Below are positions 34,699-42,921 of a DNA stretch of 64,000 nucleotides, piece by piece. Position numbers and translations under genes: made by a program. The notes beneath the pieces are model-generated. The model saw nothing but the letters and a program-made list of their open reading frames with translations. It was not told the DNA's origin and searched no databases. The stretch's first letter is position 1. Every line of letters begins with the position of its first letter. Source of the DNA: Desulfosoma sp. Its GTDB lineage: Bacteria > Desulfobacterota > Syntrophobacteria > Syntrophobacterales > DSM-9756. Where the stretch lies: assembly GCA_037481875.1 (NCBI GenBank), contig JBBFKY010000001.1, positions 496,001-560,000 of the forward strand, written 5' to 3'.

Positions 34699-35244
34699 TC
34701 AACGAGTAGCAGTCGAGTTCAGGGGCACAGCGAGTTGACACATGCCGGCGTTAGCAAGGTTGCAGCCTGGGGCTGTCATGCTATCACGGGTTTGATGCGG
34801 CAAAGCGCCAAAGCCTGGGTTAGGTCCTAACTCTTCAATGATGGCGGAAAACTCTGTTACCACCTGCTGCCAGCGTTGGCCTTCGGATGCGGACACCCAG
34901 GTGTACCGAAACCGTCTTGGATCTATACCGATGAAAGGTAGGTAACGTTGCACCAGTTCCAGACGGCGTCGAGCATAAAAGTTTCCCACGGCATAGTGGC
35001 AGTCCTTGGGATGACATCCGGAAACCAGAACCCCGTCGGCTCCTTGCGCCAGAGCTTTGATCACAAACAAAGGGTCCATACGTCCCGTGCAGGGTATACG
35101 AATGATGCGCAGATAAGGCGGTTGGCGAAACCGGCACACACCGGCGGTATCCGCTCCGCCGTAAGAACACCAGTTGCAGAGGAATCCCAGAATGCGAAGC
35201 GAAGAATGAGGTTTATCCGCGATGTTCATGGTGTTTTCAAGCAC
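34699..35244 (-). CDS. flxD: FlxD, MvhD-like 2Fe-2S subunit
   Basis: A 181-residue MvhD/FrhD-type protein that hands electrons to HdrA. It starts at GTG 35244 with GGAGG 6 nt upstream, overlapping hdrA by 8 nt. Diagnostic residues: FLCNWCSYGGADTAGV, RIIRIPCTGRMDPLFV and VSGCHPKDCHYAVGN. The Cys residues in these motifs ligate the 2Fe-2S cluster. All are Cys, so it is not the selenocysteine form seen in some relatives. Confidence 0.9.
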   Translation of the reverse strand: MLENTMNIADKPHSSLRILGFLCNWCSYGGADTAGVCRFRQPPYLRIIRIPCTGRMDPLFVIKALAQGADGVLVSGCHPKDCHYAVGNFYARRRLELVQRYLPFIGIDPRRFRYTWVSASEGQRWQQVVTEFSAIIEELGPNPGFGALPHQTRDSMTAPGCNLANAGMCQLAVPLNSTATR

Positions 35245-37195
35245 ACAAAGCCTCCAGTTCGGCCAGGATTTGGTCGTCCGTAAAATGCTTCAGTTGCGCG
35301 GCTTTGGGAGGGCACGTGGCGTTGCAAAGGCCGCAGCCTTGGCAGACCGTATCCAAAACATGAGCTTTTCGAGAACCATCCCGAAGCGTTTTCCATTCGA
35401 TGGCGCCAAAGGGGCACACGGAAAGGCATTTCCCGCATCCGATGCACGCCTTTTCCAGCACACGGGCGGTTTGCGGGTCGGTGGTGATGCTGTCGCGTGC
35501 GAAAAGGGCCAAAACTTTGGCGGCGGCGGCGCTTCCCTGAGCCACCGAGGCTGGAATGTCTTTGGGGCCTTGGCAAGCTCCGGCGAGGTAGATGCCGGCT
35601 GTGTTGGTTTCCACAGGCTTGAGCTTGGGATGACCTTCCATGAAAAAGCCGTAGGGGTCGTAAGAAATACGCAGTTTTTCGGCCAGTTCTTTAGCCCCGT
35701 GAGATGGTTCCATGCCTGTTGCCAAAACGACCAGGTCGGCTTGCACCTCCACTTGAGCTCCGAGAAGCGTGTCGGCGCCTTGCACCACCAAACGATCCCC
35801 TAAGGGATATATCTTACCCACGCGACCTCGAATGTATTGAACTCCGTAGTCTTCCACGGCTCGACGGACGAACTCGTCGTAGTTTTTACCGGGAGCTCGA
35901 ATGTCCATGTAAAACACGTAGCAGCGGACGTCAGGAAGGTGATCTCGAGCCAAGATGGCTTGTTTGGCCATGACCATGCAGCACACTCCGGAACAGTACG
36001 GCCTGTCTACCGATTTGTCCCGGGATCCCACACAGGCGATGAAAACAATGTCCCGAGGTTCTCGTCCGTCCGAAGGGCGCCGAATATGACCTCCAAAGGG
36101 CCCCGAGGCGCTAAGAATGCGTTCGAACTGCATGGTGCTGATCACGTCCGCATAACGTCCGGCGCCGTACTCTCCATAGGCTGCAGAGTTAAAAAGATCG
36201 TAGCCGGTTGCTACAATGACGGCGCCCACATGTTCCGTGATGAAACGATCCTCCATTTCAAAGCGCACAGCACCGACTGGGCAGATTTTTTGGCACACTC
36301 GACATTTGCCCGTCTTGAAATACCGGCATGCGTCCTTAAGGATATGCGCCTTTTTGGGGATGGCTTGAGGAAAGGGAATGCGAATGGCCGAAAGGGTTCC
36401 CAATCCCTCGTTAAAAGAATCGGGGGACTTCTTGGCCGGGCACTTTTCCATGCAAAGCCCGCATCCTGTGCAGGCGTTCCAATCCACGTAGGTCGCTTTT
36501 TGACGTAAGGTGATCGTAAAATTGCCGATGGTGCCGCTTAGGGATTCCACTTCCGTGTAGGTGTGCAGTGTGAGGTTTTCCTTTTGAGCCACATCCACCA
36601 TTTTGGGGCCGAGAATGCATGACGAGCAGTCAATGGTAGGAAAGGTCTTGTCCAGCTTGGCCATTTTGCCGCCGATGGAGGCTTCCCGTTCCACCAAAAC
36701 CACCTCCAGGCCCGCGTCGGCGCAATCCAGAGCCGCTTGAATACCCGCCACGCCCCCACCGATAACCATGACTCTTTTGGTGATGGGAACCTGAGAACCA
36801 AAAAGGGGTTCATTGAGCCTGACTTTGGCCACGGCCATTCGCACGAGATCGATCGCTTTTCGCGTGTTGACCGTCTTGTCCAACCCGATCCAGGAAACAT
36901 GTTCCCGAATGTTGGCCATTTCCAGCATGTAGCGGTTAAGGCCCGCTTTCTCGACGGCCCGTCGAAAAGTCAGTTCATGCATACGAGGGGAACAGGCGGC
37001 GACCACGACGCCTTGGAGTCCATGGTCCTGGATTGCATTTTGGATTTCCTGCTGCCCGGGTTCGGAACAGGTGTAGAGCAGTTCTGTGGCGTAGGCCACA
37101 TCGGGCCATAACGAGGCCTGAGCTGCTACGGCCTGAGTGTCCACGGTGCCGGCGATGTTGGTGCCGCAGCGGCAAACAAAAACACCAATGCGCAT
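35237..37195 (-). CDS. hdrA: HdrA, electron-bifurcating flavoprotein
   Basis: A 652-residue heterodisulfide-reductase-type flavoprotein, the bifurcating centre of the complex. In order: an N-terminal CRCGTNIAG motif, CSPRMHELTFRRAVE, the FAD motif VMVIGGGVAGIQAALDCADAG, TIDCSSCILGPKMVD (proximal cluster ligands), CTGCGLCMEKCP, CRVCQKICPVGA, and two C-terminal ferredoxin clusters CIGCGKCLSVCPFG and CQGCGLCNATCPP. Length is as expected for standalone HdrA. All positions are Cys. In sulfate reducers the Flx-Hdr complex couples NADH oxidation to reduction of ferredoxin and a thiol/disulfide carrier such as DsrC. Confidence 0.95.
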   Translation of the reverse strand: MRIGVFVCRCGTNIAGTVDTQAVAAQASLWPDVAYATELLYTCSEPGQQEIQNAIQDHGLQGVVVAACSPRMHELTFRRAVEKAGLNRYMLEMANIREHVSWIGLDKTVNTRKAIDLVRMAVAKVRLNEPLFGSQVPITKRVMVIGGGVAGIQAALDCADAGLEVVLVEREASIGGKMAKLDKTFPTIDCSSCILGPKMVDVAQKENLTLHTYTEVESLSGTIGNFTITLRQKATYVDWNACTGCGLCMEKCPAKKSPDSFNEGLGTLSAIRIPFPQAIPKKAHILKDACRYFKTGKCRVCQKICPVGAVRFEMEDRFITEHVGAVIVATGYDLFNSAAYGEYGAGRYADVISTMQFERILSASGPFGGHIRRPSDGREPRDIVFIACVGSRDKSVDRPYCSGVCCMVMAKQAILARDHLPDVRCYVFYMDIRAPGKNYDEFVRRAVEDYGVQYIRGRVGKIYPLGDRLVVQGADTLLGAQVEVQADLVVLATGMEPSHGAKELAEKLRISYDPYGFFMEGHPKLKPVETNTAGIYLAGACQGPKDIPASVAQGSAAAAKVLALFARDSITTDPQTARVLEKACIGCGKCLSVCPFGAIEWKTLRDGSRKAHVLDTVCQGCGLCNATCPPKAAQLKHFTDDQILAELEALCA

Positions 37196-37275
37196 GAGTG
37201 TTCCCTCAGTTCAGCGTCCAACTGTGTGCGATAAGGCTATTGGAGTCCGATTCAAGCAAAGAACAGACAACCGAT

Positions 37276-38184
37276 TCATGCCACAAACGTGTCTTGTGAA
37301 GGCGAGGTTTGCTCTTTCAAACGTGCCGCAAGGACCTTATATGGAGACACCGCCAGCTTGTCCAACCCCAGATCCTCCTCGGCAAGCCCTAAAGCCCACC
37401 CGATGACCTGGGTCAGGTAAAGAACCGGCAGATTGAATCGACGTCCCAGCGCCTTTTCCGCCTGAGCCTGTCTTAGATCCAAGTTCTGTTGGCACAAAGG
37501 GCAAGCCACGACAATCGCTTCGGCCCCCATACTTTGTGCCATGTCCAAAAGACGCCCCGAAAGGCGCGCTACCACGTCGCTTCGAGTCATCCCCGATGTG
37601 GCGCCGCAGCACTCGGTCTTGAAAGGAAAATCAGGCACGGAACATCCCAGGGCTTTCAAAAGCAGATCCATGGAAACGGGGTTTTCCGGATCGTCAAACT
37701 GGGCTGAATCCTGGGGGCGTGTTAACAAACATCCGTAGTAGGGCACAACCGAAACCCCATCCAAAGGCCGTTGCACAGCTTGAGCCAGAAGCTCCGGCCC
37801 TACCGTCTCATAAAGCAGCTGAAGCACGGAAATGGCGCGAACTCTGCCCGCGTATGGGAGCCCGAGAGCTTTTTGAAAAGCTTCGGGGCCGAAAGCATGA
37901 ACCTTGATAGCCCCTTTGAGGGCCTTCAGGCAGCCCGGGCAAGGGGTCATGATGGTTTCCAGACCGGCTTTTTGGGCCAGAACCAGATTACGTCCGGCAA
38001 GGGTCGCCGAGAGCATGGGGTCATATAAGGATGCCGGCGTAGAGCCGCAGCAGTTCCAATCTTCCAGTTCCGCTAGTTGAAGGCCGAGCGCATTGCAAAC
38101 GGTTCGTGTGGACAGATCGTACTCTGCAGCCAAGCCTTCCAGAGAGCATCCGGGATAGTAAGCAACGGGCTTGCTCATGGCCAT
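37276..38184 (-). CDS. hdrB: HdrB, CCG-domain heterodisulfide reductase subunit
   Basis: A 302-residue protein with two CCG domains (YYPGCSLEGLAAEY...NCCGSTPASL and PYYGCLLTRP...ECCGATSGMT), each binding a non-cubane 4Fe-4S cluster at the disulfide site. MTPCPGCLKALKG and VVACPLCQQNLD complete the two motifs. It acts in the cytoplasm on a disulfide (heterodisulfide in methanogens, probably the DsrC trisulfide or disulfide here). hdrC lies 25 nt upstream and hdrA 80 nt downstream. Confidence 0.95.
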   Translation of the reverse strand: MAMSKPVAYYPGCSLEGLAAEYDLSTRTVCNALGLQLAELEDWNCCGSTPASLYDPMLSATLAGRNLVLAQKAGLETIMTPCPGCLKALKGAIKVHAFGPEAFQKALGLPYAGRVRAISVLQLLYETVGPELLAQAVQRPLDGVSVVPYYGCLLTRPQDSAQFDDPENPVSMDLLLKALGCSVPDFPFKTECCGATSGMTRSDVVARLSGRLLDMAQSMGAEAIVVACPLCQQNLDLRQAQAEKALGRRFNLPVLYLTQVIGWALGLAEEDLGLDKLAVSPYKVLAARLKEQTSPSQDTFVA

Positions 38185-38209
38185 CCATCACCTATGGAGG
38201 AAAAGACGC

Positions 38210-38776
38210 TCAAAAAATTTTTGAAAAACGTTTCACCAAAGCCGCTACCTGGCGTCGGCCTTGAATACGATGAGGAACGAAGCTCAACTTTCCAGTTTTC
38301 AGCAGCTGAGGCGCCAAGTCCAAATCCGCAAGCACGGTTCCGGAGCGAACCTTGTAAGTGGCGAGAAGGCCCATTTCATAAACGCGCCCAAAGAGGGCTA
38401 CCGATCGCATGAATTCTTCGGAAAAGCGCCTGAGGTTTTTATCGGCCACATAGCCGTTTTCCAGGGCCATGATGCGAAGAGTAGCCATGACACGGGCCAC
38501 ATCGAGGGTACAAGGGCATCGCACCGTGCAGGCCTGACATTGGCCGCATATCCAGATAGCTCGGCACTGAAGCACGGTGTCCTTTTGTCCTAGTTGTACC
38601 AGGCGCATAACCTGGTTGATGGGAAAGTCATAATCCCCCGTAAAAGCGCAACTGGCGGTGCAATTGCCGCACTGGTAACATCGAGAAATGCTTTGGCCGC
38701 TGAGATCTTCCACTCGGCGCCCAAAATCAGGGTCGCTCTCCGCTTGAATTTTCAAAGTGTTCCGGCCGTTTTTCAT
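38210..38776 (-). CDS. hdrC: HdrC, 4Fe-4S subunit of heterodisulfide reductase
   Basis: A 188-residue protein with two ferredoxin-type motifs, CYQCGNCTASC and CGQCQACTVRCPC, linking HdrA to HdrB. The rest is helical (VMRLVQLGQKDTVLQCRAIWICGQC). It follows a GAF-domain gene by 9 nt, which argues for a single mRNA. It is soluble; no membrane segment. Confidence 0.92.
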   Translation of the reverse strand: MKNGRNTLKIQAESDPDFGRRVEDLSGQSISRCYQCGNCTASCAFTGDYDFPINQVMRLVQLGQKDTVLQCRAIWICGQCQACTVRCPCTLDVARVMATLRIMALENGYVADKNLRRFSEEFMRSVALFGRVYEMGLLATYKVRSGTVLADLDLAPQLLKTGKLSFVPHRIQGRRQVAALVKRFSKIF

Positions 38777-42047: not shown

Positions 42048-42398
42048 TTAGAAATTAAAAACCTTGGCCTCAGCCGCCAACTTGATCAAAAGGGGTCCAC
42101 CTTCCAGGGCCATGTTGGCATAGAATTTGGCTTCGTCTACCTGACGAGCCTTAGCACATGGGATTCAGACATAGATCGGGATTTCGTTTTCCACAAGGTA
42201 GGGCAGGTAGTCGTTGACACAATCCCCGGTGGCGGTTTTGATGGTGTAATCCCGCGTCGTGTCCGCCCACAGAACTCCTGAATCGATCAGAAACACATCC
42301 ACCTTGTGCCCTTGGGAATGGGCGATCTTGGCGAACTGAAAACAACGAGCGGCCGCGTCGATTTCGTCGCGGCTCAAGACGAAAAGAAAGTTGGCCAT
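42048..42398 (-). CDS. DsrE-like protein with in-frame UGA (probable selenoprotein)
   Basis: From ATG 42398 (GGAGGAGG just upstream) the frame runs 77 codons, meets UGA at 42165-42167, and continues without another stop to TAA at 42048-42050. The total is 116 residues, normal for DsrE-like sulfur-relay proteins. The first part is MANFLFVLSRDEIDAAARCF...DYLPYLVENEIPIYV; after the UGA comes IPCAKARQVDEAKFY...LLIKLAAEAKVFNF, the usual DsrE end. Sec78 takes the place of the first Cys of the CxxC pair (U-I-P-C). A SECIS-like hairpin (42129-42150) follows. The role is probably redox or persulfide transfer; exact partner unknown. Annotation stopping at the UGA would call it a truncated gene. Confidence 0.75.
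42129..42150 (-). promoter_or_regulatory. SECIS-like hairpin for the DsrE selenoprotein
   Basis: On the minus strand GGCTCGTC, loop AGGTA, GACG-A-AGCC: an 8-bp stem with one bulge, loop beginning 22 nt after the UGA. A GGU in the apical loop and this distance fit the bacterial SECIS model. Confidence 0.6.
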
Positions 42399-42921
42399 TG
42401 CCCTCCTCCTTTGGTGCGTGAACGGGGAAAAGAAAAGGCTCACAAACTTGAATAAACATAGTTTAAGTGTCCTACACGATCAAGAGGAAAAAGCGATGCA
42501 CGTGCCTAATCATTATCGGTCCGTTCTATGGATTGAAAAAGCATGCCGTTACATGCCATGACGATCCAGATTCAGCCCTATTCTTCGAGGGTTCGGCTTC
42601 GATGCGTCTTAAAAATGCGGTTCGACGATCAGGTCACACTCTGGTTTTCGTTGGAGAGCGAAGGATTAGCCTGGCTCGTCACGCTGGCGAGACACCTGCA
42701 TTTCCAGGGAATTCTGCGATTTGATGCTCATAGGAAGCACGGCGCTCCCTGCCCCTCTTGAACGGCCTTGCCCGGAGATCCGGCATGATGTGTTCCAGGG
42801 TGAAATACCACTCGGGCAGGTGCGGGAAATGTCTTGCCTTCAGCGAAGGCTTTAGGTTTCATTTGCAGGGTTGGTTTTCAACCGTTTTTTATATTGAAGG
42901 AGGAACCTGAAAGTCTGTTCA
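42399..42921. other. Intergenic gap
   Basis: No gene recognised. An inverted repeat CTCGTCA-CGC-TGGCGAG near 42675-42692 resembles REP-type hairpins. Short open frames here have no ribosome site or family features. Confidence 0.4.

Follow-up and report, generated by a model that had tools for sequence, protein, structure and literature searches.

An open reading frame on the minus strand of the window, the whole 64,000-nucleotide stretch of Desulfosoma DNA analysed here, carries a TGA codon in frame, which raises the question of whether the protein ends at this codon or continues through it with a selenocysteine (Sec). The frame occupies positions 42048..42398 (-), beginning with an ATG at 42398-42396 and ending with a TAA at 42050-42048, and it encodes 116 amino acids when the TGA is translated as U. 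The TGA, at 42165..42167 (-), is codon 78 and the only internal stop, and the codon of Cys81 follows at 42156..42158 (-), so that the motif reads U-I-P-C. A strong Shine-Dalgarno region, AAAGGAGGAGGG, was read directly in the sequence at 42401..42412 (-), ending at 42401 just before the ATG. The preliminary description had claimed a strong ribosome site and a single in-frame UGA with no further stop before the TAA, and re-reading of the frame gave the same picture. The standard translation (table 11) ends the frame at codon 78. Ordinary annotation thus cuts the gene short and can easily overlook what is a conserved active-site protein in sulfate reducers. The evidence below indicates that the gene very probably encodes a genuine selenoprotein with Sec predicted at codon 78.

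A scan of genome contigs found 112 relatives of the protein, of which 80 were kept. Codon 78 was TGA in 36 of these homologues and a cysteine codon in 43 (TGC in 29 and TGT in 14), while the last one had TAA; with the window gene, the number of TGA forms rises to 37. None of the 80 homologues contained an internal stop at any other position. In an independent sample, for which 247 genomes of the same phylum were searched with a profile, ten family members had an internal stop, and in all ten it was TGA. The part of the gene past the TGA was compared with three Desulfacinum sequences (91% identity), and codons 79-116 showed a pS of 0.69-0.81 and a pN of only 0.05-0.06, with the similarity vanishing beyond the TAA. 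The recurrence of the TGA, together with the purifying selection past it, means that translation goes on in frame through the downstream half in many organisms, and judged from these sequences the TGA at codon 78 is not there by chance. The proposal that the UGA lies at the first Cys of the family CxxC was also borne out, since the Cys homologues aligned to U78. Random stops or frameshifts in relatives, which would have spoken against a selenoprotein, were absent except for the one TAA, in a metagenome-assembled genome (L091:6232-6234). The hairpin sequence of this homologue was intact. SelA was present in its genome but a search of that genome for tRNA-Sec found none; recoding of the UAA is less likely here than decay of the gene or an error in the assembly.

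These data bear directly on the explanation that the TGA is a real stop, leaving a pseudogene or a truncated protein of 77 residues only. The table 11 translation agrees with this explanation, and no selenoprotein is expected to escape termination at its UGA entirely, least of all under low selenium. As the whole explanation, however, it was refuted by the low pN/pS downstream and by the alternation of TGA and Cys among homologues without stops elsewhere; the genome also contains the Sec machinery described below, and a true stop is extremely improbable.

A hairpin resembling a bacterial SECIS element was found just 3' of the UGA, at 42129..42150 (-), with its loop AGGUA at 42138-42142. RNAfold placed it at nucleotides 15-36 after the UGA, with an 8-bp stem, one bulged A, and a loop that begins after a spacer of 22 nucleotides, in agreement with the bulged hairpin and GGU loop that had been proposed from the sequence. 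The folding energy of -11.7 kcal/mol (z -2.1; 5 of 200 shuffled sequences folded as well) is modest evidence by itself, and the comparative evidence is the strong part. Among the 37 Sec forms, the codons of the upper stem and loop were frozen, with CGT in 36, CAG in 37, GAC in 37, and GAG in 33, whereas the Cys homologues used several synonymous codons and other residues at the same positions (CGC, AGG, AGA, and others; GAC in 25 and GAT in 18), including K, G, N, Q, or E at position 86. On average, the commonest codon made up a share of 0.88 inside the hairpin region versus 0.58 outside it for the Sec forms, and 0.52 versus 0.55 for the Cys forms. The sequence CAGGT includes the loop's GGU and was present in 36 of the 37 Sec forms; the GGU loop was lost in one homologue that kept the TGA (L039). 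The stem CGUC/GACG was retained in 32 of 33 sequences, and the lower stem beyond it was not conserved in all homologues. Covariation was uninformative because the pairs of the stem are nearly invariant. Bacterial SECIS elements are highly variable, and a search of Rfam with the hairpin returned no match.

The genome from which the window was taken (3.4 Mb, 99.6% complete) contains all of the components looked for, as the check proposed at the outset demanded: SelA (630 bits), SelB (416 bits), SelD (385 bits), and a tRNA-Sec with the anticodon UCA (74.5 bits), which is located 5 kb past the end of the window. The SelD gene itself has an in-frame TGA. The UCA tRNA-Sec was also found in nine of the ten relatives searched; in the tenth (G010, the genome of homologue L059), the matches over the cut-off were a tRNA-Trp and a tRNA-Ser, and no tRNA-Sec was found. 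SelB and Sec-tRNA-Sec(UCA) would then read the UGA of codon 78 as Sec, with the hairpin directing the insertion, and we infer from these computational results that Sec is actually inserted. It is highly unlikely that a suppressor reads the UGA as one of the standard amino acids (Trp or Cys): near-cognate readthrough does occur at UGA codons in general, but the alternative residue in the homologues is Cys only, the codons of the hairpin are frozen in the TGA forms only, and the full Sec system is present.

The protein had been described as DsrE-like across both sides of the UGA, and the Pfam search, run with C substituted for U at residue 78, agreed: the DsrE family PF02635 matched residues 12-116 with an E-value of 1.1e-17 and 64.8 bits (gathering cut-off 22.7). 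The score against TIGR03012, which represents DsrE/TusD proper, was 22.4 bits with an equivalog cut-off of 89.25, and by this measure the protein is not DsrE or TusD proper. The AlphaFold2 model, for which an alignment of 31 rows was used as input, had a pLDDT of 97.4. The nearest solved structures were YchN (1jx7), DsrEFH (2hy5), 3mc3, and other proteins of the DsrE fold. E. coli YchN was the best structural match (TM 0.80) and is likewise a single-domain, stand-alone protein, although only 17% of the residues are identical; YchN is not known to be a selenoprotein. The DsrE of DsrEFH, like TusD, shares the fold (Foldseek E 9e-7, TM 0.73 by query) and the active-site position 78, whereas the protein studied here lies far below the equivalog cut-off, has no dsrF/dsrH neighbors apparent by eye, has Sec in place of Cys, and carries an extra Cys at +3. 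In the model, residue 78 closes the strand 75-78 ahead of the helix 79-84, and U78 was aligned with Cys78 of Allochromatium vinosum DsrE (2hy5), the residue that accepts sulfur in that protein. Cys81, presumably the resolving cysteine, was invariant in the family alignment. The gene dsrA was present in 33 of the 39 genomes that carry the family and in 88 of the 208 others (Fisher p 1e-6, phylogeny not corrected for), and the window genome is among its carriers.

We infer the chemistry, partner, and pathway of the protein from these features; most likely, it works on its own in the cytoplasm as a sulfur carrier or reductase. Sec78, placed where DsrE has its sulfur-accepting cysteine and followed by a Cys at +3, would take up sulfane sulfur or attack a disulfide or persulfide. 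The outcome would be either Sec loaded with sulfur or a selenenylsulfide between Sec78 and Cys81, after which the sulfur would be handed on or the protein would be reset by a thiol reductant. Sulfur transfer as the job of the protein stands at about even probability. The strongest alternative keeps the selenoprotein but makes it a thiol/selenol oxidoreductase with a redox UxxC, and we regard this as quite plausible, if somewhat below even. It would account for the UxxC motif with its invariant Cys81, it agrees with reviews that place the DsrE-like proteins among the redox UxxC selenoproteins (PMC1088965, PMC13188914), and the DsrE gene has no conserved dsrFH or tusBC neighbor; the DsrE/YchN fold, the alignment of Sec with the sulfur-accepting Cys of DsrE, and the association of the family with dsrA-bearing genomes argue against it. 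Among the flanking ORFs, no dsrF/dsrH (tusC/tusB) gene was apparent by eye, and no neighbor was kept across the family, so the attempt to read a function from the gene neighborhood was dropped. A run of HdrC-HdrB-HdrA-MvhD genes, read by eye as a heterodisulfide-reductase-like electron transfer operon, lies downstream of the DsrE gene at 34699-38776 (-) and continues into iron-sulfur and flavin oxidoreductase genes to about 31755.

The orthologs make up a clade that includes the Sec forms and occurs in dsrAB-bearing bacteria. In a maximum-likelihood tree, built on 115 columns with many weak forks and with a rooting that depends on a long outgroup branch, the outgroup branch fell among the Sec-form sequences. 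The fewest changes amount to three Sec-to-Cys events, namely a Cys clade of 41 sequences and the single sequences L043 and L076, and Sec as the ancestral state of the ortholog group is therefore favored on this tree. The SECIS of L043, which has TGC, was still intact, and that of L076 was eroded. The use of a Cys-decoding tRNA-Sec by L043 was considered and rejected: the sole tRNA-Sec over the cut-off in its genome had the anticodon UCA, and the other two matches were a tRNA-Trp and a tRNA-Ser, which makes a recent Sec-to-Cys change the better reading. Distant paralogues with TGA were also found, with the motifs U-I-P-C (L154) and U-A-P-C (L155). Another distant paralogue, L153 (L153:1001-1363), had the motif C-K-A-U, with TGA/Sec at the second motif position (CxxU form), and its motif was followed by a strong GGU-containing hairpin, CUCAUCG-GUCC-CGAUGAG. 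A wider picture is put forward only tentatively: the protein would be an orphan DsrE that belongs to dissimilatory sulfur metabolism and has a selenol as its carrier of sulfane sulfur; Sec would be the original state of the ortholog group, with three or more replacements by Cys, and related paralogues would carry Sec at either cysteine of CxxC (UxxC, and CxxU in L153).

DsrE-like UxxC selenoproteins were catalogued in 2005, 2006, and 2026: two sequences in the Sargasso Sea selenoproteome (PMC1088965), one protein of Desulfovibrio vulgaris (PMC1794560), and an entry in a recent review (WP_014524487.1; PMC13188914). By their descriptions, they share PF02635, UxxC, and a UGA-encoded Sec with a bacterial SECIS, and one of them also comes from a sulfate-reducing deltaproteobacterium. 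These earlier reports mean that the finding is correct but, as a kind, known. Of the “hidden selenoprotein” of the preliminary description, the selenoprotein stood, while “hidden” holds only in a relative sense because the family was already in the literature; the window gene is almost certainly a real and solid new example of it. What goes beyond the published family is an ortholog group with 37 Sec members (the window gene and 36 others), the tree favoring ancestral Sec, and the CxxU paralogue. No description of the ancestral Sec or of the CxxU paralogue was found in the searchable literature, which counts as weak evidence. With so many Sec forms and matching Cys forms of a single short protein, what Sec gains chemically in the handling of sulfur could be tested directly. 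If the selenol does act as the carrier, nature would have provided a series of Sec/Cys exchanges with which to ask why a sulfur relay should employ selenium.

In addition to its ordinary tRNA-Cys (L165), the window genome contains a second tRNA-Sec-like gene (G000:C2:315649-315738, corresponding to L006:1501-1593 and to about 1650-1743 of L158; 54.4 bits in the Rfam search, over the cut-off) with the anticodon GCA, which would thus read Cys codons. Further loci are L124-L127, L166-L168, L170-L180, and L184. In a pattern search of 395 genomes of the phylum, 20 had matches; ARAGORN confirmed the anticodon GCA for most, and a SelB gene mostly adjoined the match. In the window genome and its relatives, the GCA tRNA stands first in a cluster and is followed, in this order, by genes for an MvhD-like protein with CCQWC, a TorD-like protein, and a second SelB. 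The cluster looks like a system dedicated to the insertion of Sec at Cys codons, and the first Cys of the CC in MvhD is the likely target. Insertion of Sec at Cys codons in nature has already been reported, according to the citation of Mukai 2016 in PMC8124441. When the mvhD gene beside the GCA tRNA-Sec was examined for a SECIS, no clear common hairpin emerged. In the 'Nitrospiraceae' genome UBA9159 (L163:1740-2338), a GCA tRNA-Sec (61.6 bits) lies directly 5' of an AhpD-like gene with the CxxC-type motif CSPRC, an arrangement that suggests a different target for the recoding of Cys codons.
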